A stretch of DNA of 64,000 nt from Paenibacillus sp. UNC499MF (GTDB taxonomy: Bacteria > Bacillota > Bacilli > Paenibacillales > NBRC-103111). The stretch is taken from the NCBI RefSeq assembly GCF_900107975.1, contig NZ_FNVF01000002.1:263178-327177 (forward strand). The letters run 5' to 3'. Under the pieces are notes generated by a model. That model did not search any database and was not told the origin of the DNA. It saw only the letters and a program-made list of their open reading frames with translations. A program made the translations under genes and the position numbers. Positions 819 to 31,229 of the stretch are shown here, piece after piece. Within the stretch, counting starts at the first letter, position 1, and each line of letters starts with the position of its first letter.

Positions 819-822
819 AGTC

Positions 823-2706: not shown

Positions 2707-2707
2707 G

Positions 2708-4326: not shown

Positions 4327-4339
4327 AGGAGGAAAACAG

Positions 4340-9019: not shown

Positions 9020-9027
9020 GGTGAATC

Positions 9028-10125: not shown

Positions 10126-10141
10126 GCGGGGAGGGAAGCGG

Positions 10142-11302: not shown

Positions 11303-11314
11303 AGGATGAAGCGC

Positions 11315-11548: not shown

Positions 11549-11644
11549 CGCAGAGCGGCCAATAAAGCCGAGTAACTTCCCTTAGGGCCCTCTATGCTAA
11601 AGAAGAGAAGGGGAACGTACCCGATTATCGGGAGGAGGGACACA

Positions 11645-12436: not shown

Positions 12437-12451
12437 ACGGGAGGAGCGGGG

Positions 12452-13885: not shown

Positions 13886-13889
13886 GTTC

Positions 13890-15215: not shown

Positions 15216-15220
15216 GGATA

Positions 15221-15973: not shown

Positions 15974-15990
15974 TTCAGGGAGGGTTCCAG

Positions 15991-16353: not shown

Positions 16354-16370
16354 GGCTGGGAGGAACAAGG

Positions 16371-17462
16371 GTGAGTGGTGTTACGACCGTTAAGACGGCT
16401 TTGTTTAACGAAACTTATCATGCGGCCTATGAATATGTATCGGATTTTACGGCTTTTACCCTGTTGGGGGCCCTAAGGGCGGGGGGCATCAGTCTTAACG
16501 AACCGGTGCGAGAGAGCGGACTGCATGCTCTGATCGCTTGTGAGGAGCAGAACAGGCCGCTGTTGAACTGGGCCATTCATTTTTTGGAGCAGCAGGAGTT
16601 CGTCCGGAGGACAACCGGGCCGGAGGGTGCGGCGGTGCTGGAGCTGACTCCCAAAGGCCGGGACTGGACTAATCGGGGAAACCCGTTCCCGGCCGTACAC
16701 GTGGCTCCCTCTCTGAAGCTTATCGAATACGCGGGGACATTCTGGCTGGAGTCCGTCCGGGGAGAAATTGAGCCCCGGCACAGGCTGTTTAACCGCGAAG
16801 GCATCGCCCTGTGGGAAGTGTATTTCCACAATGCGCATGACTTGTACGCGGTCCACAACCAGTGGGCGGCCGAAGAGCTGGCGGACCTGCTTCCCGCGGA
16901 ACCGTGCACAATTCTGGAGCTAGGTACCGGTTTCGGTTCGGCAACACGCGCTCTGCTGACGGAAATCCGCCTCCGGTCGAAGTCCGTTGAGGAGTACACC
17001 GTGTCGGACGTCAGCAGACTCCTCACGACGAAAGCCGGGAGGATGCTCGAGGGAGAGCTTCCTCCGCATAAGCTCCGCCAGGTGACGCTGGATATCAACG
17101 AGGTGAAGAGCGGCGGGGAGACGTACGATTTTATTTACGCCGTCAATGTGATGCACTGTGCGGAGGATCTGGCTCTTTCACTGGACGCGCTGCGCCGGCT
17201 GCTGAAACCGGGGGGAACGATCGTGCTGTCCGAATGTGTGAGGGAGCATTACCGGTCCAGGCTGCATCAGGAATTTATTTTCTCGCTGCTGCCCGATTTT
17301 AAGCCGGTCGGGGGAGCGGACGGAGACGTGTCCTGTTTCGGGTTTCTCCGGCCGGAGGACTGGCGGGATGTCATGCAAGCCGCGGGCTACCGGGACATCT
17401 GCGTCAAAGTGAACGAGGGGCCTGTCCGCGGCGCGATTATAACCGGAAGCCGGGAGGATTAG
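16371..17462 (+). CDS. SAM-dependent methyltransferase 2 with N-terminal helical domain
   Basis: A 363-residue methyltransferase with a GTG start behind GGAGGAAC. The N-terminal about 160 residues are helical and resemble the winged-helix dimerisation region of O-methyltransferases. The catalytic domain has ILELGTGFGSATRALL (motif I) and the LKPGGTIVLSEC strand. It would be the second tailoring methyltransferase of the cluster. Similar two-domain proteins occur in polyketide and peptide pathways. The acceptor is unknown. It ends 3 bases before the AraC-type regulator. Confidence 0.8.
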   Translation: MSGVTTVKTALFNETYHAAYEYVSDFTAFTLLGALRAGGISLNEPVRESGLHALIACEEQNRPLLNWAIHFLEQQEFVRRTTGPEGAAVLELTPKGRDWTNRGNPFPAVHVAPSLKLIEYAGTFWLESVRGEIEPRHRLFNREGIALWEVYFHNAHDLYAVHNQWAAEELADLLPAEPCTILELGTGFGSATRALLTEIRLRSKSVEEYTVSDVSRLLTTKAGRMLEGELPPHKLRQVTLDINEVKSGGETYDFIYAVNVMHCAEDLALSLDALRRLLKPGGTIVLSECVREHYRSRLHQEFIFSLLPDFKPVGGADGDVSCFGFLRPEDWRDVMQAAGYRDICVKVNEGPVRGAIITGSRED

Positions 17463-17465
17463 CCT

Positions 17466-18155
17466 ATGATCGTATTCTGGGACCACGGAGCCGGCATGGA
17501 TTCGGCGGATATCGGCCGGTCTGACCCCCGCGATACAACCGCTGCCGCCTATGTGGCCGACGGTCTGATCCTGCACGTCGGTACGGCGGAAGACGCCCGC
17601 AGGCAGGCTGTGAGCGGAAACTGCGAGGCACTTGTCGTCCTTACGGAGAACGAGCGGTTGAACGAAGACGAATTACCCGCGGACGCTGCCGTTCCCGTGT
17701 ATGTTTTTACGAAGGCGGACAAGCAGTCGCGGTTTGTGATCCAGCTCCTTTTTCACTATATGGCATCTATTCAGAGTCATGTCTTCCCAGGGAAGACAGC
17801 GGCGGGTACCGGTCCGGATAACGATATGGATTGGGAGCGTGTGCTTAAGCATATCCGGGACAACCTGGGGACGGGCGAGCTCTCTCTGGAGAGTGCGGCC
17901 AAAGAATGCTACGTATGCAAATGGCAGTTTTCGAAAGTGTTTAAAAAACAATTCGGCGTCACCTTCCGCGACTATCTGATCGAACAGCGGATCGGGGAGG
18001 CCAAGAAGCTTCTCGTAAAAGGACACTCCGTTACGGATGCCTGTTATGCCGTGGGATACGGAGATATGACCCATTTCGGCAGAATCTTCCGCAAGAAGGT
18101 CGGTGTGAGTCCTTCCGATTACCGCAAGCATTATTACAGCCAGTTTATTTTATGA
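17466..18155 (+). CDS. AraC-family transcriptional regulator 1
   Basis: A 229-residue protein with a C-terminal AraC/XylS double helix-turn-helix of about 95 residues (SLESAAKECYVCKWQFSKVF ... HFGRIFRKKVGVSPSDYRKH). The N-terminal half is receiver-like in size, but I see no phosphoacceptor pattern. It closely resembles the AraC protein at 27692-28330 in the DNA-binding part. It is encoded inside the biosynthetic operon and is probably a cluster-specific regulator. A GGAGG site precedes the ATG. Confidence 0.86.
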   Translation: MIVFWDHGAGMDSADIGRSDPRDTTAAAYVADGLILHVGTAEDARRQAVSGNCEALVVLTENERLNEDELPADAAVPVYVFTKADKQSRFVIQLLFHYMASIQSHVFPGKTAAGTGPDNDMDWERVLKHIRDNLGTGELSLESAAKECYVCKWQFSKVFKKQFGVTFRDYLIEQRIGEAKKLLVKGHSVTDACYAVGYGDMTHFGRIFRKKVGVSPSDYRKHYYSQFIL

Positions 18156-18199: not shown

Positions 18200-19051
18200 A
18201 TGAGAAAAAGATGGCAGTTCTTGCTTGCCGTTCTGATTACGGCAGGACTGTTAGCGGAATTTTATACTTACTGGAACCGGCCGTACAAGCTTCCCCCGGT
18301 ATCCGACGGCATGCAGCTTGCGGAATACAATCTTGAGTTCGGGAAGGAAAAAGCCGCAGCCGGCGGACAGGTGCAGGGAAGCGCGGACGATTTGCAAAAA
18401 AAGGTTGCCGCCGAGCCGGACAACCTGGCCTACGGCAATGCGCTCCGGATAACGATGGGCAAAGAGGGCCGGATCGACGCCTTCGTCGCGTTTATGAAGT
18501 CGCTGGAGCAGCCCCCGGCAAGAGCCAAGCTTCAGCTGGCGCTGGCTTACGTGGACCAGATGCAGAACGAATCTCTGGGAACCGCCTCTCTCGGACAAAT
18601 ATCCGTTCATTCCATTGAATTGATGAATGAGGTGCTGGAGAAGGACCCTTACGACTGGCTGGCTCATTATGCCCGCGGAATCAATAACCTTTACTGGCCG
18701 GTGGGTCTGCAGCGGATCGACAAGTCCATTCAGGACCTCTCCTTCTGTCTGGCCGTCACGAAGAAATTCGAAGGGGACCATCCTTTCTACATGTGGGCTC
18801 TGGCATACACGGCACTTGGGGATGCACTGGTTAAAAAAGGCGAAGTCGGCGACGGCATGAAGATCTGGAAAGAAGGGCACGAGGCCCATCCCGATGATCC
18901 GGCCTTGAAGGAGCGGGCGGAAGCATCCAAGGAAGAAGCGGTCGAAATCGTCGTGCGTGAGCGGGGCATGGACCAGTTTCAGCGGCCGGACCCGGGAATC
19001 AGCGATCTCAGCCCCATTTGGAATTCCCCGAAAGAAGGGCGGGGCGAATGA
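18200..19051 (+). CDS. Membrane-anchored TPR-like protein
   Basis: A 283-residue protein with an N-terminal signal anchor (WQFLLAVLITAGLLAEFYTY) followed by helical repeats that resemble tetratricopeptide repeats, for example YMWALAYTALGDALVKKGEV. It should be anchored outside the membrane with the repeats available for protein contacts. TPR proteins are often found with CRTAC1/UnbV-type FG-GAP proteins, and such a protein is encoded further along this operon. A scaffold role is therefore plausible. Its stop overlaps the ketosynthase start (ATGA). Confidence 0.7.
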   Translation: MRKRWQFLLAVLITAGLLAEFYTYWNRPYKLPPVSDGMQLAEYNLEFGKEKAAAGGQVQGSADDLQKKVAAEPDNLAYGNALRITMGKEGRIDAFVAFMKSLEQPPARAKLQLALAYVDQMQNESLGTASLGQISVHSIELMNEVLEKDPYDWLAHYARGINNLYWPVGLQRIDKSIQDLSFCLAVTKKFEGDHPFYMWALAYTALGDALVKKGEVGDGMKIWKEGHEAHPDDPALKERAEASKEEAVEIVVRERGMDQFQRPDPGISDLSPIWNSPKEGRGE

Positions 19052-20295
19052 ACCGCGGGGGCTTTGCAACCGGTGAACGAGCCCGCCAAGAGGGGCGAAC
19101 GGCAGTGGTCACGGGCCTGGGTGTCGTAACTTCGATCGGCACGGACGAAGCATCCTTCTGGAGAAATCTGCTGCGGGGAGAGACCGGCGTCAAACCGATT
19201 ACGGTGTTTGACGTGGAGAAGCATACGAACCGGATGGGCTGCCAGATCGACGACATTCCTCTCTCCGCCTGCGCTCCGGACGCTCTCTTGAAATCGGGAA
19301 GAGCGACCCGGATTCTGATGCCCGCCATCGAGCAGGCTCTGCGGAATGCGGGGCTCGGTAAGCCTGAGCTTGCCCGCTATCGGGTCGGGCTTTGCGTGGG
19401 CACCACGATGGGAGACATCGACCCGCTTGAAGGCGCCATCCAGGGAAAGCGCAGCGGGGCCTTCGGAGGGCCGCATGTCATAACCGATGGGATCGGACGG
19501 CTGCTTGAACTGAAGGGGCCCGCATGGACGTTCACCAACGCCTGTGCAGCCGGAAATTTCGCCATCGCCAGAGCCATGGACGAGATTGCGTCGGGCAGAG
19601 CGGATGTGATGATCGCCTGCGGAGCAGATTCGCTGTCCTGGGTCGCTTTTACGGGATTCAGCAGCCTGCGCGCCATGGCGCCCGACCGCTGCATGCCCTT
19701 TGACGTCCGCCGGAAAGGACTCATCCTCGGTGAAGGGGCGGGCGTGCTCGTCATCGAGTCCCAGGCTCATGCGGAGGAGCGCGGGATACGTCCGCGGGCC
19801 GGGCTGCTCGGGTACGGGATGAGCTGCGACGCTCATCACATTACCCAGCCGGACCCGCAGGGGGAAGGCGCCGTGCGGGCCATGCGCGCCGCATTGAAGA
19901 TGGCGGCGGTTCCCGCGGCCGGCGTCGATTATGTGAGCCTGCACGGAACGGGCACCCAGGCGAACGACAAGATGGAGGCGGCCGCCCTGTCGGCCGTCTT
20001 CAAGGAGACGCGGCTTCCGGCCGCAAGCTCGATCAAGGGCCACATCGGCCATACGCTGGGCGCGGCAAGCGCGATCGAAGCGGTGATGAGCGTGAAATGC
20101 CTGGAGGAAGGGCTGGCTCCGCCGACGCTAAATCTGGAGCAGCCCGATCCGGCATGCCCGGTTCCCGTTCTGATGAAGGAGCCCGCGCCCGGCAGGTACC
20201 GCACCGTTTTATCGAATTCTTACGCGTTCGGAGGGGTGAACTCCTCGATCGTACTGTCCGCCGTTCATGGGCGGGGGCGGGAAAACTTGAATTAA
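19048..20295 (+). CDS. Ketosynthase 1 (FabF-like, complete Cys-His-His)
   Basis: A 415-residue condensing enzyme starting at the ATG overlapping the previous stop. The active-site cysteine is in TFTNACAAGNFAIA, the first histidine in SLHGTGTQANDKME, and the second in SIKGHIGHTLGAASA. These are the FabF/KS-alpha signatures. It would elongate an acyl-ACP with malonyl-ACP. It is a stand-alone (type II-like) enzyme rather than part of a modular synthase. It is followed by two further ketosynthase homologues, one degenerate and one complete. Confidence 0.9.
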   Translation: MNRGGFATGERARQEGRTAVVTGLGVVTSIGTDEASFWRNLLRGETGVKPITVFDVEKHTNRMGCQIDDIPLSACAPDALLKSGRATRILMPAIEQALRNAGLGKPELARYRVGLCVGTTMGDIDPLEGAIQGKRSGAFGGPHVITDGIGRLLELKGPAWTFTNACAAGNFAIARAMDEIASGRADVMIACGADSLSWVAFTGFSSLRAMAPDRCMPFDVRRKGLILGEGAGVLVIESQAHAEERGIRPRAGLLGYGMSCDAHHITQPDPQGEGAVRAMRAALKMAAVPAAGVDYVSLHGTGTQANDKMEAAALSAVFKETRLPAASSIKGHIGHTLGAASAIEAVMSVKCLEEGLAPPTLNLEQPDPACPVPVLMKEPAPGRYRTVLSNSYAFGGVNSSIVLSAVHGRGRENLN

Positions 20296-20308
20296 AGGGG
20301 GTGGCACA

Positions 20309-21136
20309 GTGCCGCAGTTCATTTATTTAACCGGGTGCGGTTATTATATGGCTCCCAGCTTTGCCGCGATTGTAGAACGCCCGGAAAGCCCGGCGCCGGC
20401 TGAGGATTGCGGGAGCGAGGCTTTGTCTTCACGGATTGAAGACGAACCGGAGGAGGCGTCACAGGGACTTAAGGGGCTGAAAAGACACTCCAGAGCCGTC
20501 CGGCTGGCCTGTCTGGCCATCCGCGAGGCGCTGCGGATGGCCTCGATTCCCGTGGACCCCGCCGACGGGAAAAGAAACGACATCGGCGTGGTTGTCGGGA
20601 CCAACGACGCGAATCTGGAGGCCATCGACCGGCTGCAGCAGGAGGCGGAAACGTACGGGGTGAACAACACGAATCCGGGTCTGTTTCCGGAAACCGTACT
20701 GAATGTAACCGCCGGCCAGGCATCCATTTATTTCGGGCTCGGCGGCCCCAATGTGACGATATCGGGCGGGGACTTCTCATCGGTGAAGTCGCTTCAGTAC
20801 GCGGCCGACATGCTGGAGTCGGGCAGCGCTTCCCATGTGGCGGTCTGCATCGTAAGGCTGCTGCCGCCCGCCGTCTTCGAGGGAAGTATCCGGTACGTGA
20901 CCGCCCGGGAGTCCGTCGTCGCTTTGGTGCTCTCCCGGCAGCCTTCCGGGGAGAACAGCTTCAAGCTGCGCATGGCAAGCGCAGCGGATCTGCCGGATGC
21001 GGCAGGTATCCGCATGACGGACGAAGGGCTTCCCGCCGCGCTGGCTTTCAAACTCGAAAGCGGCGGTCTCCCGTCCGGAGCATCCGTGATGTATGCGGAT
21101 GCCGGTCCGGAGGGCCTGCTTGCCATCGAGTGTTAA
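20309..21136 (+). CDS. Half-length ketosynthase-like protein without active-site cysteine
   Basis: A 275-residue protein matching only the N-terminal half of a ketosynthase, as in the Ketoacyl-synt_2-type proteins of aryl polyene clusters. The region aligned to the nucleophile elbow reads NVTISGGDFSSVKSL, with no cysteine, and the C-terminal domain with both histidines is absent. The GTG start follows AAAGGGGGTGG. It is probably a chain-length-factor-like or structural partner of a neighbouring ketosynthase. The even coding quality argues for a functional short protein rather than a recent truncation. Confidence 0.75.
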   Translation: MPQFIYLTGCGYYMAPSFAAIVERPESPAPAEDCGSEALSSRIEDEPEEASQGLKGLKRHSRAVRLACLAIREALRMASIPVDPADGKRNDIGVVVGTNDANLEAIDRLQQEAETYGVNNTNPGLFPETVLNVTAGQASIYFGLGGPNVTISGGDFSSVKSLQYAADMLESGSASHVAVCIVRLLPPAVFEGSIRYVTARESVVALVLSRQPSGENSFKLRMASAADLPDAAGIRMTDEGLPAALAFKLESGGLPSGASVMYADAGPEGLLAIEC

Positions 21137-21172
21137 AACCGTGCAAATCCGCGTCGTTAAGAGGAGATAACT

Positions 21173-22441
21173 GTGAAGAATACTAGCGTTCTGGTTACGG
21201 GAACGAACATGTTGTGTTCCCTGGGCATAAGCAATCACGAAGTATGGGAAGCCGCGCTGTCCGGTAAAGTCCCGGAGCCGTCCCTGCGCTCCTATCCTTT
21301 TCCGGACGGCACCCGTTTGGAATATCCGGTCTTCTCTCTTCCGGATTTCGAACTGTCCGATTGCCTGGAAGAGAAGAGCATACGGTGGCTTGCGGAAAAT
21401 CATCTGCTGGACGACCGGGACTTCTGCATGCTGCTCCTGTCCATCCGGCAGGCGCTCGACGACGCCTCTTTCCGGATAACCGGAGACAGCAGAATCGGGC
21501 TCGTTATCGGCCACGAGAATCTGGGTGCCGTGAAGCTGACCGATAAATTTATCCGTTATCAGAATGCGGCCCCTCAAAAAAATCAAGGAGATCAAACGCC
21601 GCTTTTCAACGAGTTCCGCCGCGAGTTTTTTAATATCCAGACGTTTCCCTACCTGTTCTATCTGGCGCAGCTGCTGGGGGTAAACGGGCCGGGCTATGTC
21701 GTAAACAATGCCTGCGCCTCGGGTTTGTACGCCCTGGAGCTGGGGAGGATGCTCATAGCGGGCGGCAGTGCGGATCTCGTTATCGTCGCCTGTTCCGACT
21801 ACGCGCACGCATCGGAGTATTTGTGGCTGCAGGAGAAAGGCTTTGTTTCCAGGCAGATGAAAATCAGGCCGTTCGATCTGCACAGGGACGGTTCCATTCT
21901 GGGGGACGGTGCGGGCACGCTCATTCTCGAATCGGCCGCACATGCCGCGAGAAGGTCGGCGGAACCCCTTGCGGTTTACCGCGGAGGAGCATTCATCCAG
22001 GAACACTGGCATATGACGCTTCCGGATGTTTCGAGGCACTCCTACGCGTCGGTCATCACGGAAGCCGCCGGGCACGGAACGGCTCCGGAAATTGACGTTA
22101 TCGTTCCGCACGGTTCGGGCAGCACCCTGTGGGACCGGTACGAGGCGAACGAAATCCATCGTGCCTTCGGCGGGCTGGACCGGCCGGTTCCGGCCGTAAC
22201 CTCCTTCAAGGGGTATTTCGGGCATTTGCTGGGTGCGAGTGCCATGATCGAAACCGTGCTTCTTCTGCACTGCATGAAGAGAGAGACTCTGCTTCGTACG
22301 CTGAATTACGAACAAGCCGATCCGAGAGTGCAGCTTCCCGTTCAGACGCAAACCGTGCACAAAAAAACGGCGTCCGCCTTAAAATCGGTACCCGCTTACG
22401 GCGGATTCCACGCGGCTGTCCTGTTCAACAAGCCGGATTAG
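21173..22441 (+). CDS. Ketosynthase 2 (complete Cys-His-His)
   Basis: A 422-residue condensing enzyme, only moderately similar to ketosynthase 1. The nucleophile is in VVNNACASGLYALELG, with histidines in VPHGSGSTLWDRYEAN and SFKGYFGHLLGASAM. Because the cysteine is kept, it is not a classical chain-length factor. It may extend a different chain or act on a different carrier protein. The start is a GTG after GAGGAGA. It lies 8 bases before the ketoreductase. Confidence 0.87.
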   Translation: MKNTSVLVTGTNMLCSLGISNHEVWEAALSGKVPEPSLRSYPFPDGTRLEYPVFSLPDFELSDCLEEKSIRWLAENHLLDDRDFCMLLLSIRQALDDASFRITGDSRIGLVIGHENLGAVKLTDKFIRYQNAAPQKNQGDQTPLFNEFRREFFNIQTFPYLFYLAQLLGVNGPGYVVNNACASGLYALELGRMLIAGGSADLVIVACSDYAHASEYLWLQEKGFVSRQMKIRPFDLHRDGSILGDGAGTLILESAAHAARRSAEPLAVYRGGAFIQEHWHMTLPDVSRHSYASVITEAAGHGTAPEIDVIVPHGSGSTLWDRYEANEIHRAFGGLDRPVPAVTSFKGYFGHLLGASAMIETVLLLHCMKRETLLRTLNYEQADPRVQLPVQTQTVHKKTASALKSVPAYGGFHAAVLFNKPD

Positions 22442-22449
22442 GAGGAACT

Positions 22450-23199
22450 ATGGCAACGACGACTTACAGTTTTGCAGGAAAAACGATTTTGGTGACCGGA
22501 GGGTCGCGGGGGATCGGCAGAGCCGTCGTTAAACAGCTGGCTTCGGCAGGTGCCCGCGTCGTCTTCACCTACTCGAAGGACCGGCAGGCGGCCGAATCTC
22601 TTCTGGATGAGACGGGGAGGGATTTATCGCGTGTCTCCTGCGTGCAGGCGGATTTTACGGACAGGCTTGCCGTCGCCGGTATGGTCGGAAAGCTGCTTGA
22701 AGAGGGCCCCGTAGATGGTGTCGTCAACAACGCCGGCATTTTACAGGATACGCCCATGTACCGGATGACCGACGAGCAGTGGGACACGGTCCTTCAGGTG
22801 AACCTTACCTCGCTGTACGTCATTCTGAAAGCCCTCATCCGTCCCCTTGCCGCTTCCGGCGGGAGCGTGGTGAACCTCTCCTCCGTGACCGGACTTGCCG
22901 GAGCCGCGGGACAAACCAATTATGCCGCCTCCAAGGCGGGCGTTATCGGTCTGACCAAGGCGCTTGCCAAGGAGGCGGGGCCGCTGGGCATACGGGTAAA
23001 CGCCGTTGCCCCCGGGTTTATCGGCACCGACATGCTGGAATCCGTTCCCGTCCGCCGCAAGCGGAACCTGGAAAAGGATATCCCGCTGAGAAGATTGGGA
23101 ACGCCCGAAGAGGCGGCCTCCGCCGTCCTTTTCCTTCTCTCGGATGCGGCTTCTTATGTGAACGGTGCCGTGCTGGTTGTGGACGGAGGATTACTTTGA
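22450..23199 (+). CDS. 3-oxoacyl-ACP reductase (FabG-like short-chain dehydrogenase)
   Basis: A 249-residue classical SDR. It shows the NADP-binding TGGSRGIGRAV loop, the NNAG motif, the catalytic serine in VVNLSSVTG and the YAASK tyrosine-lysine pair, and ends VNGAVLVVDGG. The start ATG at 22450 follows AGGAGGAAC directly after the ketosynthase stop. It would reduce 3-oxoacyl groups made by the two ketosynthases, feeding the dehydratase pair encoded at 5.5-6.4 kb. This is the expected core of a fatty-acid-like reducing cycle. Confidence 0.92.
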   Translation: MATTTYSFAGKTILVTGGSRGIGRAVVKQLASAGARVVFTYSKDRQAAESLLDETGRDLSRVSCVQADFTDRLAVAGMVGKLLEEGPVDGVVNNAGILQDTPMYRMTDEQWDTVLQVNLTSLYVILKALIRPLAASGGSVVNLSSVTGLAGAAGQTNYAASKAGVIGLTKALAKEAGPLGIRVNAVAPGFIGTDMLESVPVRRKRNLEKDIPLRRLGTPEEAASAVLFLLSDAASYVNGAVLVVDGGLL

Positions 23200-23213
23200 A
23201 AAGGAGAACTGTC

Positions 23214-23477
23214 ATGAATGTTAAAACTGTGAAATCCCGCATTATCGAAGTAACGGTGAGTCTTCTCGATTCGACGGAGCCGGTGGAAGAACTCGACGCC
23301 GACGCTTTCCTGCGGAAACCCCTGCCTGAAATCGGGATCGATTCTCTGGCTGTCCTGGAACTCGTGGTGACCCTGGAAAGAGAATTCGGCGTGAGAATGA
23401 CGGAGGACGATCTCGGCGGCATCGCGACACTGGAGGATATTCTGACCTTTATTACAGGTAGGGCGGGACAAAGCTGA
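23214..23477 (+). CDS. Acyl carrier protein 3
   Basis: An 87-residue carrier protein with the attachment site PEIGIDSLAVLELV near residue 45. The start ATG at 23214 has AAAAGGAGA upstream. It lies directly behind the ketoreductase, so it is the most likely carrier for the elongation cycle of the two ketosynthases. It is 41 bases ahead of the UnbV-like gene, with no terminator seen in between, so they probably share a transcript. Confidence 0.89.
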   Translation: MNVKTVKSRIIEVTVSLLDSTEPVEELDADAFLRKPLPEIGIDSLAVLELVVTLEREFGVRMTEDDLGGIATLEDILTFITGRAGQS

Positions 23478-23517
23478 GCCGGATCTCATTATGAATGGAT
23501 GAGGAGATGGAGAGTAT

Positions 23518-25248
23518 ATGCAGGTTAAACCTTTGAGCAAAATGCTGCTTGCCGTGTCGGCGCTGCTTATAACGGCCACCGGCTGCGGCGCCGGGCAGAG
23601 CCGGACGGATTTCGGCTTTTCGTTGAAGGAGACCACACAGGCTTCCGGTGTCAAATTCACCCACAGCAAGCCGACGTTCGACCCCAAAGTGGCGAACATT
23701 ATGCCCTGGATGGCTTCGACGGGAGCGGGCGTGTTTACGGCGGATTATGACGGAGACGGGTTTATGGACCTTTATTTCGTAAATTCCGCCAAAGGCTCCA
23801 AGAACGCCCTCTTCCGCAACAACGGGGACGGCACCTTTACCGAAACGGCGGAGTCCGCCGGAATTGCGGATGTTAACAAGGACGGGATCTCGGAGGCGGC
23901 CGTCTGGTTCGATTACGATAACAGCGGATATCCGAGCCTGTTCGTCGGTTCTTGGGGCAAAAGCCGCCTGTTTCACAATAACGGGAACGGAACTTTTACG
24001 GAAGTCACGGATCAGGCGGGCGTCGGATACAAGGGCTACGTCAACAAGGCGATCGTCCTCGATTACAACAAAGACGGCAATCTGGATCTGTACTTGTCTT
24101 GTTATTTTCATGAAAAGAACGACCTGTGGAATTTGACGACGACGAAGATTATGCATAACGATTTCGAGCGGGCGCGCAACGGCGGACGGAACGTGCTGTA
24201 CCGGAATAACGGGGATGGCACCTTCACGGACGTTACCGCAGAGCTCGGGGTGGGCGATACGGGCTGGACCCTCGCTTCCGGGACATGGGACGTGAACAAC
24301 GACGGCTGGCCGGACATCTACAACGCCAACGATTTCGGACCGGATACCCTGTATCTGAACGAGAAGGGGAAGAAGTTTACGGCCGTCGTTCAGCCGAGGG
24401 GAATCGGAGATGATACGTTTAAAGGAATGAACGTCGATTTTGCGGATATTTTCCATGACGGCAGGCCGGCCATGTACGTCAGCAACGTCAGCAAATCCCA
24501 ATATATTCTGGAAGGCAACCAGTTGTGGCACGAGAAAGACGGCCAATTTATCGACCGCGGGAAGGAAATGGGCGTCAATTTGGCCGGCTTCTCCTGGGGA
24601 GCCCGTTTTATGGACCTGGACAACAGCGGCAATTCGAGTCTGGTCGTCCAAACGGGGTTTGTATCCGCCAGCAAGAAGAAAGATTACTGGTTCGATCTGG
24701 GGACGCTCGCAACGACACCGGGCAATATCGTCGAGGATACGAAAAACTGGCCGGCTTTCGCCGACAAAAGTCTTTCCGGCTATGAGAACAAATTTCTTTT
24801 CTACCCGCAGGGAAATAAATTTACGGATATTGCCGCACAGGTCGGTCTCGACTTCGTGGAAGACGGGCGCGGAATTTCGGCGGTCGACATCCGCAACCAA
24901 GGCAAGCTTGACCTGGTGTTTGCCAATCAGGGCGGACCGGCCCGGGTTTACGAGAATACCGTCACCGATCAGCACAACTGGATCAAGCTGGATCTGACGG
25001 GTACGGCGCCGAGCAGCCGGGACGCGGTAGGAGCCCGGGTGACTTTTGAAGTGAACGGAGTGGAAACGGTCATGGAAAAAGACGGCGCCAACAGCTTCGG
25101 CGGCCAGAGCGATCCGCGTCTGCACTTCGGTCTCGGCAAAGCGGACAAAGTGGACAAGATCACGGTGCGCTGGCCCAGCGGAAGAGTGGAACAGTTCCAG
25201 GACGTTCCCAAAAACCAGATTTTGCGGCTGACCGAAAAGAAGGACTAG
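23518..25248 (+). CDS. unbV: UnbV-like FG-GAP/VCBS-repeat lipoprotein with C-terminal ASPIC/UnbV domain
   Basis: A 576-residue exported protein. The N-terminus is a lipoprotein signal with the lipobox ending ITATGC. The body holds FG-GAP/VCBS calcium-binding repeats, seen as DYDGDGFMDLYF, NNGDGTFTE, DYNKDGNLDLYLS and DVNNDGWPDIYNAND, which should form a beta-propeller. The last about 100 residues match the ASPIC/UnbV module (VGARVTFEVNG ... RLHFGLGKADKVDKITVRWP). Proteins of this kind (E4/UnbV) are conserved next to enediyne polyketide synthases, where their role is not settled. Here the gene is directly followed by an UnbU homologue, starting one base after its stop. Confidence 0.88.
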   Translation: MQVKPLSKMLLAVSALLITATGCGAGQSRTDFGFSLKETTQASGVKFTHSKPTFDPKVANIMPWMASTGAGVFTADYDGDGFMDLYFVNSAKGSKNALFRNNGDGTFTETAESAGIADVNKDGISEAAVWFDYDNSGYPSLFVGSWGKSRLFHNNGNGTFTEVTDQAGVGYKGYVNKAIVLDYNKDGNLDLYLSCYFHEKNDLWNLTTTKIMHNDFERARNGGRNVLYRNNGDGTFTDVTAELGVGDTGWTLASGTWDVNNDGWPDIYNANDFGPDTLYLNEKGKKFTAVVQPRGIGDDTFKGMNVDFADIFHDGRPAMYVSNVSKSQYILEGNQLWHEKDGQFIDRGKEMGVNLAGFSWGARFMDLDNSGNSSLVVQTGFVSASKKKDYWFDLGTLATTPGNIVEDTKNWPAFADKSLSGYENKFLFYPQGNKFTDIAAQVGLDFVEDGRGISAVDIRNQGKLDLVFANQGGPARVYENTVTDQHNWIKLDLTGTAPSSRDAVGARVTFEVNGVETVMEKDGANSFGGQSDPRLHFGLGKADKVDKITVRWPSGRVEQFQDVPKNQILRLTEKKD

Positions 25249-26034
25249 ATGAGCAAAGATCCGAGACTGTACATTTTGGCGTTTTTATTGTCCTTTGTTG
25301 CCGCAGGCCAGTTGTTTCTCGGTTTTTTTCAGAGATGGGACTCATTCTTCGCGTCTGTTCTTACGGCGGTCATTCTTGAGTTTATTCTGGCCGGCTGGCT
25401 GAAGAAGAAATGGGCGTTCCCCTTGAGCGCCCTGATTACGGGCATCGGCATCAGTTTGCTGCTAAGCTCCTATGCCATATGGCCCTATATCCTGACGGCC
25501 GTTCTTGCCGTCACGATCAAGCAGTTCGTCAGGCTGCGGGGAGCCCACATTTTCAACCCGAACAATGTTGCGATGGTGATCATGCTGATCGCACTGCCCG
25601 CCTACGCCGTGAGTACGCCCAAGCAGTGGACCAACGGGATCGAGGTCATGAGCCTTATTATGATTCTCGGTCTCTTCGCGGCCTATAAAGCCAAACGGCT
25701 GGATTCCGTCCTGGCTTTTATCGGGGGTTTTTCCTTCTTTGCTTCCATAAGAGTGGGAGTGTTCGGGGAGCCGGCCCTCTACGCCTTCGGACCGATGATG
25801 GGGGCATCCTTTCAGCTTTTTTCCTTCTTTATGATTACGGATCCCAAAACGACGCCGCCCACCCGGAAAGCGAGGATCCTGTTCGCCTTTCTTATCGCAT
25901 TTACGGATGCCTGGCTGCGTGTGAATCAAATAACGAATTCGCAGTTTTACGCTTCATTTCTGGTCACGCTCCTGCTCGGAGTGCCCTACAGGCTGCTGGC
26001 CAAAAAAACGGGAGAACCGGGAATTCCCGTTTAA
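25249..26034 (+). CDS. unbU: UnbU-like RnfD/NqrB-type membrane protein, copy 1
   Basis: A 261-residue integral membrane protein with about eight hydrophobic segments. It resembles subunit D of Rnf complexes and subunit B of Nqr, including HIFNPNNVAMVIML, STPKQWTNG and the FFMITDPKTTP motif near the C-terminus. In enediyne clusters this protein is E5/UnbU. The start lies immediately after the UnbV stop, so the two are translationally coupled. A redox or electron-delivery role at the membrane is the family-level expectation. The second copy at 30381-31229 is clearly paralogous. Confidence 0.83.
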   Translation: MSKDPRLYILAFLLSFVAAGQLFLGFFQRWDSFFASVLTAVILEFILAGWLKKKWAFPLSALITGIGISLLLSSYAIWPYILTAVLAVTIKQFVRLRGAHIFNPNNVAMVIMLIALPAYAVSTPKQWTNGIEVMSLIMILGLFAAYKAKRLDSVLAFIGGFSFFASIRVGVFGEPALYAFGPMMGASFQLFSFFMITDPKTTPPTRKARILFAFLIAFTDAWLRVNQITNSQFYASFLVTLLLGVPYRLLAKKTGEPGIPV

Positions 26035-26104
26035 AGCCTGACGGCAGGGCGGAGGACTTCCTCCGAAGAGGAGAAGCCGCTGTGCTGCCGGCTGTTTAGA
26101 CGCC

Positions 26105-26155
26105 AAAAAGTCCGGGGAGGCGGCTCCGTTTGGAGCTTCCGTTCCCGGACTTTTT
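26105..26155. terminator. Bidirectional intrinsic terminator
   Basis: AAAAAGTCCGGG and CCCGGACTTTTT form a long stem with A and T tracts on both sides. It lies between the convergent unbU copy 1 (plus strand) and the small Cys-rich protein gene (minus strand), so it can end both transcripts. The 120 bases around it hold no other feature. Confidence 0.8.
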
Positions 26156-26164
26156 CTTGGGCGG

Positions 26165-26383
26165 CTATTCGACATAGCGTTTCTCGGCGCCCAAGTGCCT
26201 GGCGATGCAGGCTGCGCTGCAGAACCAGTCCCGGTCGAAGTCCCAATTCTTCTCCCCGGCATAAATCGGGTTCCTGCATCTGTCGAATGCGCACTCCGTA
26301 ACTTGACTCGGTTCCTCTGCCTGACGGTCCGGCAGCCCGACAACAAATCGATCCAGCGACGGCAAGACAAGCCCTCCATTCAT
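26165..26383 (-). CDS. Small Cys-rich (zinc-binding-like) protein
   Basis: A protein of up to 72 residues. It has four cysteines arranged as TECAFDRC ... WFCSAAC, a spacing that suggests a small zinc ribbon or treble-clef-like site. The ATG at 26383 has no clear ribosome binding site. A TTG at 26365 sits 6 bases behind GGAGGG and may be the real start. It lies downstream of the S24-type repressor on the same strand and probably shares its transcript. I do not recognise the family. Phage-type small proteins of this kind are common near such repressors. Confidence 0.5.
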   Translation of the reverse strand: MNGGLVLPSLDRFVVGLPDRQAEEPSQVTECAFDRCRNPIYAGEKNWDFDRDWFCSAACIARHLGAEKRYVE

Positions 26384-26472
26384 CCGTTATGAAACTAGGA
26401 TACGATGGCGGAGGCCGGCGGGACTCCTCGTTTGTTGCCGGCTGTACGGCGTTTGTTGACTTCCGTACCGGT

Positions 26473-27306
26473 TTATTCGGCGTCCCGCAGCACGCTTACG
26501 ACTTTGCCCAATATGCTGACGTTAACCGGATAGAGCGGCTGAAAGCGATCGTTCGCAGGCTGAAGCCTAACCCGGTTGGACTCTTTGAAGAAGGTTTTTA
26601 CTGTCGCTTCTTCGCCGTCGATCAAAGCGACGATCACTTCTCCGTTGTCCGCCGACGACTGTTGACGGACGAGCACCAGATCGCCGTTCTCGATTCCTTT
26701 ATTGATCATGCTTTCCCCTTGAATCCGCAGGATGAAATGTTTTCCCTGGCCCACCAGATTTTTGGGGACGCTGAAATACTCTTCGATATTCTCCGCAGCC
26801 AGAATGGGACTGCCCGCCGTAACTTTACCGATCAGGGGAAGCCGGACGTAATATTCCGCGGAGAGCGAAGCTTCACGGAGTTCGCCGCCCGGCTGGATGG
26901 AAGCGGTCTTCACCTTACCGGACCGGTATAGATCACCCGGCGTCTGAGCCCGGTTCTTGCTTGCAAGATGAGCGGCCATCGTCTGGAGAAGCACCAGGTC
27001 TTCCTCCTCAAGCTGTTCGGCGACGTCATACAAGGCATCTATATGGGGATGGCTTTTCACGGAAGGTGGAAAGGGTATGAAGTTCGCAGGAAAATCGGGA
27101 ATCGTGCCTGTCATCAGCCAGTCAAGGGAAACGTTGAATTGTTTGGAAATGGAGATCAATGCTCTAGCAGTAGGGGTCGATTTTTTTTTGCCATTTTCCC
27201 AATCACTGATGTTTCCCGGAGAAACTCCGATCATAGCGGCCATCTTGGCCATGGTCAAGTTGTGCTTTAACCGCAGCTCCTTGATGCGATGATTAATTTC
27301 ATTCAT
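26473..27306 (-). CDS. XRE-S24 LexA/CI-type repressor
   Basis: A 277-residue repressor. Residues 1-65 form an XRE helix-turn-helix (MAKMAAMIGVSPGNISDWEN). The C-terminal half is an S24 peptidase with the serine in RIQGESMINKGIENGD and the lysine in EEATVKTFF. An Ala-Gly pair in GKVTAGSPILA fits the LexA-type self-cleavage site. The ATG at 27306 is preferred because GGGGGC lies upstream and the XRE domain begins there; longer versions add an unlike leader. Such proteins are inactivated by RecA after DNA damage. Twin operators overlap its own promoter. Confidence 0.87.
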   Translation of the reverse strand: MNEINHRIKELRLKHNLTMAKMAAMIGVSPGNISDWENGKKKSTPTARALISISKQFNVSLDWLMTGTIPDFPANFIPFPPSVKSHPHIDALYDVAEQLEEEDLVLLQTMAAHLASKNRAQTPGDLYRSGKVKTASIQPGGELREASLSAEYYVRLPLIGKVTAGSPILAAENIEEYFSVPKNLVGQGKHFILRIQGESMINKGIENGDLVLVRQQSSADNGEVIVALIDGEEATVKTFFKESNRVRLQPANDRFQPLYPVNVSILGKVVSVLRDAE

Positions 27307-27344
27307 TCTCAAGCCCCCAATTCGGCATAATCCAGAACAATCAA

Positions 27345-27358
27345 CAAACATATGTTCT
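27345..27358. promoter_or_regulatory. Operator 1 for the S24 repressor (SOS-box-like)
   Basis: CAAACATATGTTCT contains the perfect palindrome AACATATGTT at 27347-27356. It matches the Bacillus DinR/LexA box CGAACRNRYGTTYC except at two positions. A near-identical copy starts 24 bases further on. It lies between the repressor promoter and the repressor start, as expected for autoregulation. Confidence 0.6.
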
Positions 27359-27361
27359 AAT

Positions 27362-27370
27362 AGTATATCA
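27362..27370 (-). promoter_or_regulatory. Extended -10 element of the repressor promoter
   Basis: On the minus strand the sequence TGATATACT is an extended -10 element (TGn plus TATACT). It sits 56 bases upstream of the repressor start and between the two operators. No good -35 hexamer is present, which is normal for extended -10 promoters. Confidence 0.5.
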
Positions 27371-27382
27371 AACATTAGTTCT
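27369..27382. promoter_or_regulatory. Operator 2 for the S24 repressor
   Basis: CAAACATTAGTTCT differs from operator 1 at two central bases. It overlaps the likely minus-strand promoter, so occupancy would block transcription of the repressor gene. Confidence 0.55.
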
Positions 27383-27446
27383 AGAAAATAGCTATTTATT
27401 CCTTTCTTACAAATAGTTAAAAAAATACGCATATACGAATTTAACC

Positions 27447-27475
27447 TTGTTTTCGTACGCATAAGCGTTTATAAT
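27447..27475 (+). promoter_or_regulatory. Sigma-A promoter for the AraC2-unbL segment
   Basis: TTGTTT and TATAAT are separated by exactly 17 bases. It lies in an AT-rich intergenic region and points towards the AraC gene at 27692 and the genes behind it. The transcript would have a leader of roughly 200 bases in which no further structure was identified. Confidence 0.65.
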
Positions 27476-27691
27476 TTGTTTTACCAGATTCCACCAATGA
27501 ATTTGAATATATCTGCCTTTTCTAAGGATGTGAAACTTCATGACAAAAAAAGACGGATAGGTGACAATCCAAGCAGATCATCGACAAATTTTTATTGGTA
27601 AAATTTATTTTAGAAAGGTGTAATCAGCCATTTTATAGATTTTATGTCATTTATAAAAAATTCACCGACTATCAAGAGGGGGATGAACGAA

Positions 27692-28330
27692 GTGGATTTG
27701 CTGGTCTTTGTACATAAAGCCGAGAAATGTAAAGATTACCTTGCGGATTTGCTGCTTCTTTCCAAAAAAGTGAAGTTGACCGAGTTTGTCGATTTTAACT
27801 CCGCTCTCCAGCTGGTCAAGAAGGCGCGCTATAAACTTATCGTATTTCTTACCTTCGAGCCGGTTTTTCCGAAAGCCTGGAACGTAAACGAGCTGCGAAT
27901 CAACAGCCCTATGCTCGCATTGGCCGGGGCCGATAAAATCAGCTTGTCTTCCTTAATATCTCTGATTGATATGGTGGCCCAGAATGAAGAAGTTTCCCAT
28001 GATAACCGGCTTTTCGCGGAATCACTGGCCTACATCGACGAGAACATATGCGAAAACGATCTGAATCTCGAAAAGGTCGCTTCGCAAATCTATGTCAGCC
28101 GGTGCCACTATTCCCGGATGTTCCAGAAGTATGTGGGAACGGGCTTCAAAGAATATGTGATGAATAAACGGATCCAGAAGGCGAAGCTATTGCTGCAAAG
28201 GGGAGAGCCCGTCACCGATGTTTGTTTCTCGGTAGGCTATAACGATTTGACTCACTTCGGCAGAATTTTCAAGAGAAAGGTGGGGGTGAACCCGTCCGTC
28301 TACAGATTGAGCAAAGCCGCTTCACAATAG
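27692..28330 (+). CDS. AraC-family transcriptional regulator 2
   Basis: About 212 residues with a C-terminal AraC-type DNA-binding domain (LEKVASQIYVSRCHYSRMF ... HFGRIFKRKVGVNPSVYR). This part is close to that of AraC1 at 17466-18155. The N-terminal part has a receiver-like length without a clear phosphoacceptor. The GTG at 27692 follows AGGGGG at good spacing. An ATG at 27683 has that site only one base away, and one at 27644 lacks a site. It is divergent from the S24 repressor and probably controls the unbL-unbU2 segment or the whole cluster. Confidence 0.83.
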   Translation: MDLLVFVHKAEKCKDYLADLLLLSKKVKLTEFVDFNSALQLVKKARYKLIVFLTFEPVFPKAWNVNELRINSPMLALAGADKISLSSLISLIDMVAQNEEVSHDNRLFAESLAYIDENICENDLNLEKVASQIYVSRCHYSRMFQKYVGTGFKEYVMNKRIQKAKLLLQRGEPVTDVCFSVGYNDLTHFGRIFKRKVGVNPSVYRLSKAASQ

Positions 28331-28423
28331 AAGAAAAGGGAGTGAAATAACGAAAGCAGGCAAGTCGTATTTTAAAAACGCGCCAACCGTTTCAGCCACA
28401 CGAAAAGCGGAGGAGATGGGTTC

Positions 28424-29428
28424 ATGCAAGTTGTTGCCGTCATATCCGGATTAGGGGCATTTCTAGCGGTTCTTGCTCCGTTCATTTATCTGAAAGCTTT
28501 TCACCGCAGCATCCCGAAGATGGTCGCCAAATTTCCGATCACGCACCATGTCCATTACGACCGCAAATTCCCGCAGATTCTAAGGGCGTTCTTGTCTGGC
28601 AGCAACTGGGCTTTAAAACCGGTACCGGGAACGTCGGGGCTGCGCTCCAGATTGGAAACAAGTTTTGAGCCGTTCTATAAAGGATTCGCTTACGAAGGGA
28701 CCGGCATGGGACTTGGCGTAAAATCTTCTTTATTCCCGTCAAGCGGAAAACGTTTCGAAGCCTACATTCACCGGCTGTCGCCGGGATATTTGTACCAATA
28801 TTACGTGGGGCTCGGATGGTATCTCACGATCCGTCACGGCTTCCGGTACCGGGCATACAAGCGCTGGATGGGGCAGCTCCATCCAAGATACGCGCCCATT
28901 GTGTTCGACGGAGTCGGATTTCAAACGGCCTTGTTTCACTACAAGAAAAATAAACAGATTATTCAGAAATTTAACAAGTTTCCGGTTCCTTACCGGCGCG
29001 TCTGTTATCAGGGGTTAGGCAGGTGTTTATGGTTTTTGACGGAATTCGATTTACAAAAAACGGCTGCCGAACTGGAAAATTTGCCTGCTGAATTCAGAAA
29101 CGATGCATATAGTGGAGTAGGGCTGGCTGCCGCCTACAGCTTTTTCGACCAGATTGCGTTCGCCGCCCAAACGGATAAACAGATTCCCGTACAATACCGG
29201 CCTGCTTTCCGGCAGGGGCTTGCCTTCGGCTGGGAAGCGCGCCGCCTGCAGGACCCCGTCTACTGGGATGAACAATTGGAGAAATATACCTTCCCCGTCA
29301 TTCTTACAGTCACCGGATTTGTGGACCGCGTTCACGAGGCCGTGCAGCTGATGGGGCATAACGATACGGAAGCGGATTATTACTTGAGATGGATGGATAC
29401 CGTACGAAACCTGCTTAAGGAAGAATAG
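28424..29428 (+). CDS. unbL: UnbL-like DUF1702 protein
   Basis: A 334-residue protein of the DUF1702 family. Typical blocks are YKGFAYEGTGMGLGV, YYVGLGWYLTIR, VFDGVGFQTALFHY, CYQGLGRCLWFL and YSGVGLAAAYSF. This family is known from the unbL (E3) genes of enediyne clusters and has no established activity. An N-terminal hydrophobic segment (VVAVISGLGAFLAVLAPFIYL) suggests membrane association. The start follows GGAGGAGATGGG. With UnbV and UnbU it completes the E3-E4-E5 trio within this window. Confidence 0.85.
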   Translation: MQVVAVISGLGAFLAVLAPFIYLKAFHRSIPKMVAKFPITHHVHYDRKFPQILRAFLSGSNWALKPVPGTSGLRSRLETSFEPFYKGFAYEGTGMGLGVKSSLFPSSGKRFEAYIHRLSPGYLYQYYVGLGWYLTIRHGFRYRAYKRWMGQLHPRYAPIVFDGVGFQTALFHYKKNKQIIQKFNKFPVPYRRVCYQGLGRCLWFLTEFDLQKTAAELENLPAEFRNDAYSGVGLAAAYSFFDQIAFAAQTDKQIPVQYRPAFRQGLAFGWEARRLQDPVYWDEQLEKYTFPVILTVTGFVDRVHEAVQLMGHNDTEADYYLRWMDTVRNLLKEE

Positions 29429-29471
29429 CCCGTAACCGCAGCGTGAGCTGCCGGTGCAAAGGAGAGATGGC

Positions 29472-30368
29472 ATGCGTGCGAAAAAGCTTGTGAATACCCG
29501 GGAGCTTTCTTACGGGGAATGGCTGGCCTGGCGGAGACAAGGAATCGGCGGCAGCGATGCGGCAGCCGTGTGCGGAGCGGACAAATGGAAATCCGCTCTG
29601 GAAGTTTACCTGGATAAAACCGGAGAACTGCCTCCTGCGGAAGAGAAGGAAGCGATGAGGCTCGGCAGTAAGCTCAAAGATTTTATCGCCCGGGAATTTA
29701 CGGACCGGACCGGACACAGGGTGATGAGAAGAAACTCGATCTTTCAGCACCCGGAGCACTCTTTTATGCTGGCCGGCCTGGATCGCTGGGTGATTGGCTC
29801 TCAAGCGGGTCTGTTATGCAAAACAGCCGGCGAATTCAGCAAAGAAGAATGGGAGGAGGGCCGGGTTCCCGCGAGAATCGATTTTCAGTGCCAGCACTAT
29901 ATGGCCGTTACGGGCGCAGGCCACTGGTGGGTAGCCGTTCTGATCGGCGGCAACAAATTCCGTACGGTGCGTCTGGAGCGCAGCGAGGAAAGGATAGAGG
30001 AGCTTATCGAAAGGGAAACCGTATTTTGGAACGGGCATGTCCTGGAAAAAAGACCGCCGGCCTTCGACGGAACGGACGCATCGTCCGATTTGCTGAACCG
30101 TCTGTATCCGCCGGTCACGAGCCGGACCTCTTCCGTGCCCCTGACGGAAGAAGCGGAACGCTGGATCGGGCAGTACCGGCAGGGAGCGGAAGAGGAAAGG
30201 GCGGCTGCGCTGCGCAAAACGGAGGCGGAAAATAAGCTCAAGGGACTTCTGGGTGAGCATGAGCAGGGCACGGTAGGGAACTACAAAGTGGAATGGAAAA
30301 GCATTAACCGGAAATCGGCCCGGTCCGCTTCTTACAGGCGGTTTCAGATTTCAACCATTTCGAAGTAA
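29472..30368 (+). CDS. YqaJ-like phage recombinase/exonuclease with altered active site
   Basis: A 298-residue protein with the YqaJ viral recombinase fold, recognisable from RRQGIGGSDAAAVCG, AGLDRWVIG and QCQHYMAVTGAGHWWVAVLIGG. The lambda-exonuclease-like site usually contains E-x-K. Here the region is AGLLCKTAG, so the glutamate is missing and nuclease activity is doubtful. The ATG at 29472 follows AAGGAGAG. Its position between unbL and the second unbU, with short gaps on both sides, is unexpected. It suggests capture from a mobile element or a new role. Confidence 0.8.
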   Translation: MRAKKLVNTRELSYGEWLAWRRQGIGGSDAAAVCGADKWKSALEVYLDKTGELPPAEEKEAMRLGSKLKDFIAREFTDRTGHRVMRRNSIFQHPEHSFMLAGLDRWVIGSQAGLLCKTAGEFSKEEWEEGRVPARIDFQCQHYMAVTGAGHWWVAVLIGGNKFRTVRLERSEERIEELIERETVFWNGHVLEKRPPAFDGTDASSDLLNRLYPPVTSRTSSVPLTEEAERWIGQYRQGAEEERAAALRKTEAENKLKGLLGEHEQGTVGNYKVEWKSINRKSARSASYRRFQISTISK

Positions 30369-30380
30369 CGGAGGAATTTT

Positions 30381-31229
30381 ATGCGCAACGAATTAAACAC
30401 GCATCTGCGTTCGGTCGTATCCTGGCGGGATTACCGGATCGATCCGAGATACTTCATTCTGGCGTTTCTGAGCAGCTTTGCGATAGCCGGGCAGGTGTAT
30501 CTGGGCTTTTTTCAGAAGTGGGATGCGGTTCTTGTGTCCGTTTTTTGTACCATGGGAACGGAAGTGATTTTGAACCGGCTGAGAAATAAAACGTGGATAT
30601 TTCCGCTTAGCGCCCTGATCACGGGAATCGGCGTCTCTCTGCTGCTCAGCTCTAACCTGCTGTGGCCTTACGCGCTTACGGCCGTCATCGCGATCGCGCT
30701 GAAATATGCCATCCGGTTCAAGGGCGGGCATATTTTCAACCCCAACAATGTGGCGATGGTCATCATGCTTTACTCCCTGCCCCAATATGCGGTGAGTACC
30801 CCCAAGCAGTGGACGAACGGCATCGGCGTCATGATTGTGATCTTGTCCCTGGGCATCGTGGTGTGCTACATTGCCAACCGGCTCGATGCGGTGCTTGCTT
30901 TTCTGGGGAGCTTTACGCTGTTTGCGTTCGTGCGGCATTTCTTCTTCGGAGCGCCTCTGTTTGCGGCCCTGGGGCCTCTTATGGGCGCCTCCCTTCAGCT
31001 GTTTGCCTTCTTCATGATCACGGATCCCAAGTCCACGCCTGCGACAAGGAGCGCGCGCATTGCGTTTGCTTTCTTGGTCGCTCTGCTGGATGCCGTTTTC
31101 CGCATTAACCGGATTCCGAATCCGCAGTTTTACGCCTTGTTCCTCGTGTGTCTGGTCCTCATCATTCCATATCGGCTGTGGGCTGCCCGCAAAACGGTGC
31201 CGGAACCGGGGCTGACGGCAAACTCTTAA
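30381..31229 (+). CDS. unbU: UnbU-like RnfD/NqrB-type membrane protein, copy 2
   Basis: A 282-residue multi-pass membrane protein, clearly paralogous to the copy at 25249-26034. Shared blocks include FPLSALITGIGVSLLLSS, GHIFNPNNVAMVIML, STPKQWTNG and FFMITDPKSTP. It has an extra hydrophilic N-terminus of about 25 residues. GGAGGAA precedes the start. Two UnbU-type proteins could form a two-subunit membrane complex like RnfD with a partner, or could be alternatives under different control. Confidence 0.83.
   Translation: MRNELNTHLRSVVSWRDYRIDPRYFILAFLSSFAIAGQVYLGFFQKWDAVLVSVFCTMGTEVILNRLRNKTWIFPLSALITGIGVSLLLSSNLLWPYALTAVIAIALKYAIRFKGGHIFNPNNVAMVIMLYSLPQYAVSTPKQWTNGIGVMIVILSLGIVVCYIANRLDAVLAFLGSFTLFAFVRHFFFGAPLFAALGPLMGASLQLFAFFMITDPKSTPATRSARIAFAFLVALLDAVFRINRIPNPQFYALFLVCLVLIIPYRLWAARKTVPEPGLTANS

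Follow-up and report, generated by a model that had tools for sequence, protein, structure and literature searches.

The closest described setting for the genes considered here is the enediyne polyketide synthase (PKS) cassette, whose five common genes are listed in PMC5181780. The cassettes of the C-1027 producer plasmid SGLP1 (L062) and of Streptomyces clavuligerus pSCL4 (L063) were read directly as references. We take the cassette genes numbered E3, E4 and E5 to encode the DUF1702, UnbV and UnbU families, respectively, and to our knowledge none of the three has a settled role. The same three families, hereafter the trio, are encoded at positions 18200-31229 of a 64,000-nucleotide stretch of a Paenibacillus genome (G000:C24:263178-327177, here called the window; unprefixed positions refer to it), whose host is close to strain HGH0039 and P. 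chitinolyticus. As in the enediyne PKS cassette (E3/E4/E5/E/E10), the trio is encoded together beside an iterative synthase; the enediyne cassette differs in having the enediyne PKS itself (PKSE) and E10, neither of which was found at this locus. The first-pass annotation had recognized the trio here, with UnbV as a lipoprotein and UnbU in two copies, and every member is borne out by Pfam matches above the curated cut-offs (UnbV PF07593, UnbU PF03116 twice and DUF1702 PF08012).

Polyene-forming type II systems, which make ishigamide and aryl polyenes (APE), resemble the locus in another respect. They too combine a FabF-like ketosynthase (KS), a KS partner without the active cysteine, a ketoreductase (KR), hotdog dehydratases and acyl carrier proteins (ACPs). 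We take PDB entry 6kxd to be the ishigamide KS, ApeO/ApeC/ApeR to be the aryl polyene system and PF13723 to be the APE-type chain length factor (CLF) model, and we know of no trio in either kind of type II system. The KS partner of the window (half-KS) is matched by PF00109 only (threshold E 0.01) and not by the APE-type CLF model.

Pairing of the trio with a dissociated synthase

Within one Bacillota order the trio is repeatedly found with a dissociated, probably polyene-type synthase; elsewhere it goes with PKSE. A literature search returned no paper on the pairing of the trio with a dissociated KS set. The first-pass annotation had suggested a neighbourhood survey for the trio together with type II ketosynthases, and the pairing was found to recur across the order, in 21 of 392 genomes and 9 of 49 genera; DUF1702 itself is present in these 21. 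Strong matches to UnbU (at least 369 bits; next best 97) and to UnbV (at least 868 bits; next best 132) fall in those same 21 genomes, while strong half-KS matches (at least 197 bits; next best 95) occur in 20 of 373 genomes, every one a trio genome. The 21st trio genome, G765, lies outside the 373-genome sample yet carries the half-KS. These bit cut-offs were chosen after the gaps were seen; at E 1e-5 the looser counts are 70/392 for UnbU, 71/392 for UnbV and 372/373 for the half-KS, since generic RnfD-like proteins, FG-GAP proteins and ordinary ketosynthases match too. KS1, the first ketosynthase, is encoded near the trio in 19 of 20 relatives, and in the other one, G553, the contig stops inside the gene for the short-chain dehydrogenase/reductase (SDR). 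The genome of the window has a single DUF1702 and a single UnbV_ASPIC match, and among 398 sampled genomes of the phylum it alone carries DUF1702. The pairing of the trio with the dissociated KS set is neither accidental nor a coincidence of names.

RnfD-like proteins without the trio are encoded in 49 other genomes of the order, and five regions around such solo genes (L153-L157) contain no trio partner and no KS cassette gene. Two short UnbV pieces in separate frames (L158 5896-6283 in G482, and G677:C51:46567-46966) were also seen; those of L158 are 61-62% identical to the window UnbV, and the pieces are what is left of a cluster that another genus has lost.

PKSE was searched for with residues 501-1939 of SgcE, the part that follows the ketosynthase, against the whole genome of the window and 20 trio-bearing relatives. 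No PKSE was found in these 21 genomes; among the matches listed there were only partial acyltransferase or KR matches, the best at 99.5 bits, against a yardstick of 686-2523 bits for 56 PKSE-bearing loci. Likewise, no E10-like thioesterase was present among 35 window proteins and no tblastn match to E10 at 1e-5 was obtained in 20 Bacillales loci. A PKSE just outside the window, which the first-pass annotation had named as the finding that would make this an ordinary enediyne cluster, thus did not turn up in the genome searched.

Named genomes were also scanned with a DUF1702 alignment, which gave 378 confirmed stretches; the best 80 of the 378 were classified. Twenty of these loci belong to Paenibacillus, Brevibacillus, Longirhabdus or uncultured Paenibacillaceae, and none of the 20 shows PKSE similarity beyond the KS region, nor does any match E10. 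KS1, the half-KS and a protein with tetratricopeptide-like repeats (TPR protein) are encoded in 19 of them and a separate second ketosynthase, KS2, in 18 (in L071 there is only a cross-match in the stretch covered, and L086 is clipped by the contig end). Among the other 60 loci, 56 have a PKSE of more than 600 bits, the exceptions being L095, L117 and two short or clipped loci, L109 and L128; the half-KS and the TPR protein have no match in any of the 60. The two contexts, a dissociated KS set in one and PKSE in the other, indicate that the trio serves two alternative iterative synthases. Enediyne clusters set a module of this same kind beside PKSE, and what the contexts have in common is an iterative chain builder that ketoreduces and dehydrates, not the enediyne synthase itself.

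Individual loci in other groups were also noted. The plasmid psymA of Sinorhizobium meliloti T073 carries a complete cassette of the enediyne type, with DUF1702, UnbV, UnbU, PKSE (a frame of 1911 aa) and thioesterase (L064 17809-27913), the proteins being ~31-50% identical to those of Streptomyces. PKSE, DUF1702 and UnbV occur in assemblies labelled Bacillus sp. (a metagenome-assembled genome, MAG), Acidobacteriota and Verrucomicrobiota (L102, L107, L121 and L138), and so beyond the actinomycetes, although MAG contamination is possible. L109, a 5.8 kb contig of a Saprospiraceae MAG, has the trio with no PKSE in view, and DUF1702 adjoins a UnbV-like gene on a plasmid of the gammaproteobacterium Serratia proteamaculans (NZ_MT039191.1 39429-42719).

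The chain builder and a proposed pathway

The chain builder is dissociated and fatty-acid-like, as the first reading had it, with KS1, half-KS, KS2, KR and ACP as separate proteins and a second ACP and two FabA/FabZ-like hotdog proteins further left. In alignments, KS1 (6 rows) and KS2 (12 rows) keep the catalytic Cys and both His positions; the half-KS has no Cys at the active position in 17 rows and ends after the N-terminal half. The best solved relative of KS1 is 9s5h chain B (2.5e-90), followed by FabF-type enzymes and 6kxd. Chain B is also the best solved match of KS2, and chain C gives the best profile match of the half-KS (7.2e-28). The 9s5h/9s5i entries, a pair of a KS and a KS-like protein named only '3-oxoacyl-(Acyl-carrier-protein) synthase', yielded no relevant paper in a literature search. 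Chain C of 9s5h is full-size (412 aa), whereas the half-KS here corresponds only to the N-terminal half. The KR also matches 3oxo_ACP_reduc (9.4e-79), under that model's cut-off. No enoyl reductase was recognized in the part of the open reading frames (ORFs) that was scanned, and one may act in trans. Since a KR and two hotdog proteins are present and no enoyl reductase was recognized among the scanned genes, an unsaturated chain is expected. Judged from these genes, the chain would be highly unsaturated and is probably a polyene.

We propose that the segment forms the heart of a large natural-product cluster. In this proposal, the dissociated iterative synthase (KS1, Cys-less half-KS, KS2, KR, two hotdog dehydratases and two ACPs) would make an acyl chain that is unsaturated and probably a polyene. 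The DUF1702/UnbV/UnbU trio would work at the membrane, on this chain or in its surroundings: it would receive the nascent polyene and rearrange or otherwise modify it, either within the membrane or outside it. PhyH oxygenases, methyltransferases, an aminotransferase and a glycosyltransferase would do the tailoring. That the trio is a polyene-handling membrane module beside a dissociated synthase is the reading we prefer, and we give it about an even chance.

The trio proteins, their possible roles and their kinship

In UnbV the ASPIC/UnbV C-terminal domain follows FG-GAP repeats, a lipobox pattern is present in 18 of 20 orthologs and the solved relative is human CRTAC1 (9etn, 8.7e-14). UnbU matches RnfD structures over the membrane core in profile searches (7zc6_D, 4.6e-11) but, in contrast to RnfD/NqrB, has no covalent-flavin mononucleotide (FMN) loop. 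The DGISQAT stretch of Escherichia coli RsxD, the last Thr of which we take to be the flavinylated residue, is aligned with a gap in all four UnbU proteins compared, the two of the window and one each from the Streptomyces C-1027 producer and S. clavuligerus. RnfD-like covalent FMN chemistry is therefore unlikely in UnbU of either context, while other redox chemistry is still allowed. No other Rnf subunit was found among the window proteins scanned. The first-pass annotation had suggested that the trio may serve a more general chemistry, such as membrane-linked redox steps. The recurrence of the trio with a dissociated KS set and without PKSE argues for a role wider than serving PKSE, but the lack of the FMN loop weakens the redox part of that suggestion.

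The two UnbU proteins of the window (261 and 282 aa) are shorter than the two from Streptomyces (346 and 374 aa). UnbU is present in all 21 trio genomes, with two strong copies in 12. It may lie outside the cassette, ~44-60 kb off on the same contig in G400, G490, G533 and G605. In the regions fetched (G400, G408, G490 and G533) the remote UnbU is adjoined by PhyH genes, and in G490 and G533 by a class III aminotransferase gene as well. DUF1702 is predicted, with high confidence, to be all-helical with a hydrophobic N-terminal helix (mean pLDDT 95.2, pTM 0.92); the start is strongly hydrophobic in the window protein and in 12 of 20 Bacillales orthologs, and not in the other 8. No clear solved relative of DUF1702 was found by sequence or by comparing the model with the PDB. 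Across 45 diverse sequences spanning both contexts 24 columns are invariant, among them the GF-AYEG block, which was the search pattern that picked most of those loci; a smaller set of 18, partly found by other routes, has 27 invariant columns.

These features may also be read as those of a membrane device for export, capture or self-protection that deals with a reactive lipophilic product and carries out no chain chemistry, with UnbU channel-like, UnbV an extracytoplasmic beta-propeller that binds the product and DUF1702 a carrier. The missing flavin loop, the lipobox of UnbV, the lack of a clear solved relative for DUF1702 and the placement of UnbU, which has no copy within 10 kb in 8 of the 20 named loci and can be at the remote distances given above, would all suit such a device. 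The close tracking of the synthase genes by the trio and the 24 invariant columns of DUF1702, although with the reservation about GF-AYEG, are less readily explained by it, and we regard it as a serious but distinctly less probable explanation than polyene handling.

The UnbV tree, which is unrooted so that its branching order cannot be read, has three clades: Bacillales (21 rows), PKSE-linked and five generic CRTAC1 proteins. A branch splits 50 PKSE-group rows (some with no PKSE in view) from the 21 Bacillales rows, and the window UnbV is outside the PKSE-linked clade. Since the Bacillales UnbV proteins form their own clade and are by identity closer to a generic CRTAC1, they may have been recruited separately. 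In the UnbU tree, with RsxD as outgroup, Bacillales and PKSE-linked UnbU proteins group together at 98/94, and five solo RnfD-like proteins fall elsewhere. The trio may stem from a single ancestral module or may have been recruited piece by piece. A further reading holds that the resemblance is one of names, with a generic CRTAC1 and a generic RnfD-like protein recruited separately and DUF1702 the sole real link to enediynes. The greater identity of UnbV to generic CRTAC1 and the weaker RnfD-like matches in 49 other genomes of the order point that way, but the fact that one set of 21 genomes out of 392 holds all three families and the grouping of UnbU, even with its long branches, make this very improbable.

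Several observations weigh against the polyene-handling reading. The trio is only ~20-30% identical to the PKSE-linked trio, and the window UnbV shares more identity with a generic CRTAC1 of the acidobacterial genus Granulicella (34%) than with Streptomyces enediyne UnbV (28-29%). The UnbU grouping is weak because the RsxD branch measures 10 changes per column, and it holds only with the RsxD outgroup. UnbU is within 10 kb of DUF1702 in just 12 of 20 named loci. Additionally, the trio could serve export or protection in place of chain chemistry, and the chain may not stay unsaturated, as an enoyl reductase could act in trans.

Gene content, possibly damage-related genes and significance

The features of the window are collected in Table 1. 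The rows nearest to its UnbV are those of Paenibacillus sp. HGH0039 (97% identity) and P. chitinolyticus NBRC 15660. The cluster has its right edge at ~31.3 kb; of the regions fetched, just those of the two closest relatives contain the next gene, at 31863-33932. Left of the window are four carbamoyltransferase genes, close together (L022 3282-14656), an epimerase gene and more PhyH genes; the clustered carbamoyltransferases suggest a multiply carbamoylated product. Orthologs of the TPR-like protein (39-92%) are encoded upstream of KS1 in the fetched regions of 19 of 20 relatives.

Table 1. Annotated features of the 64,000-nucleotide window
Feature	Positions	Strand	Basis
FAD-binding protein (cut by window edge), AHSA1/PDZ protein, four PhyH dioxygenases	3..5188	+	Pfam
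Second ACP	5197..5514	+	PP-binding 4.3e-11
FabZ-like hotdog protein, probable dehydratase	5511..5951	+	no Pfam match; profile match to FabZ 5bux 4.3e-12
FabA/FabZ-like dehydratase	5969..6379	+	FabA 3.5e-12; 8ayb 4.8e-22
Two alpha/beta hydrolases, unassigned protein, M29 peptidase-like protein, GT28-type glycosyltransferase, fifth PhyH	within 6376..18155	+	Pfam
AMP-binding ligase, class III aminotransferase, two methyltransferases, cupin, AraC regulator	within 6376..18155	+	Pfam
TPR-like protein, hydrophobic N-terminus, first gene of conserved cassette	18200..19051	+	weak TPR_14 below cut-off
KS1 ketosynthase	19048..20295 (start estimated; ORF opens TTG 19018)	+	ketoacyl-synt 1.5e-35
Half-KS, ketosynthase N-terminal half, no active Cys, CLF-like	20309..21136	+	PF00109 partial 6.6e-12
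KS2, second ketosynthase	21173..22441	+	Pfam; alignment
SDR, FabG-type KR	22447..23199 (start estimated; ORF 22129-23199)	+	adh_short_C2 5.7e-65
ACP	23214..23477 (start estimated; ORF 23205-23477)	+	PP-binding 5.9e-10
UnbV/CRTAC1 lipoprotein	23518..25248	+	FG-GAP_3 3e-37; UnbV_ASPIC PF07593 4e-21
UnbU copy 1, NQR2/RnfD family membrane protein	25249..26034	+	NQR2_RnfD_RnfE PF03116 4e-14
LexA/CI-like repressor	26473..27306 (start estimated; ORF opens 27462)	-	Peptidase_S24 1.6e-32; HTH_3 4.7e-16
Two AGAACnnATGTTTG sites, LexA-box-like, upstream of repressor	27345..27382	-	
Two palindromes of form ACGCATAnGCGT	27427-27438 (imperfect), 27457-27468	no strand	alignment of 5 genomes
AraC-family regulator	27644..28330	+	HTH_18 1.8e-20
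DUF1702 protein	28424..29428	+	PF08012 3.5e-35
YqaJ/lambda-exonuclease-family protein	29454..30368	+	PF09588 9.8e-34; TIGR03033 1.6e-32
UnbU copy 2	30381..31229	+	PF03116 2e-15

Three further genes, none of them mentioned in the first-pass annotation, are interspersed with the trio: those for a LexA/CI-like S24 repressor and for an AraC regulator split it, and that for a YqaJ-family protein lies between DUF1702 and the second UnbU. The TAG, G[ED]SM and T[VL]KTF stretches of the repressor, to which we assign catalytic roles, are kept in all 8 genomes that have it (the window genome included; loci searched), and the LexA-box-like AGAACnnATGTTTG motif is present in the loci of the same 8 genomes. 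The site at 27345-27358 is one mismatch from the consensus CGAACRNRYGTTYG, where chance would provide a mean of 1.46 such sites per window. Numbers of LexA boxes and of ACGCATAnGCGT palindromes in the window are within chance. The repressor with its LexA-box-like sites is a possible damage-responsive switch inside a biosynthetic cluster. The YqaJ-family gene adjoins a UnbU gene in other clusters too, including G490 and G533, in which that UnbU is far from the cassette. In all 10 genomes that have YqaJ the Asp is kept and the Glu of the ExK motif (which we assume to be that of the YqaJ family) is replaced by Leu, so the protein is conserved but perhaps not a nuclease. The repressor and YqaJ are each present in only 7 of 20 named loci.

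The repressor and YqaJ fit a DNA-damaging product, and may leave an enediyne-like product possible. This would be a dissociated (type II) enediyne pathway in which KS, half-KS, KS2, KR, dehydratases and ACP replace PKSE, an explanation that overlaps with polyene handling. The trio is shared with enediyne clusters, the KR and dehydratases with no recognized enoyl reductase parallel the KR-dehydratase part of PKSE, and the repressor, its sites and YqaJ recur in related clusters. The failure to match an E10 thioesterase (35 window proteins; 20 loci), the Leu at the ExK position, the patchy occurrence of the repressor and YqaJ and the chance-level counts of boxes and palindromes argue against it, and we consider such a pathway unlikely. 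A bolder version is equally doubtful: Paenibacillaceae would hold a second, separately built route to enediyne-like warheads, with a type II polyene synthase feeding the trio module that makes the actinomycete enediyne core, and some clusters would be guarded by a damage-sensing LexA-like switch.

A trio that works without PKSE separates two things that have so far been described together, and the pairing marks out a cluster family that recurs across the order (21 of 392 genomes). Several bacteria of this family sit in culture collections. Should the trio prove to modify a polyene in these strains, its chemistry could be tested in bacteria other than enediyne producers; a role confined to export or protection would redirect enediyne research.

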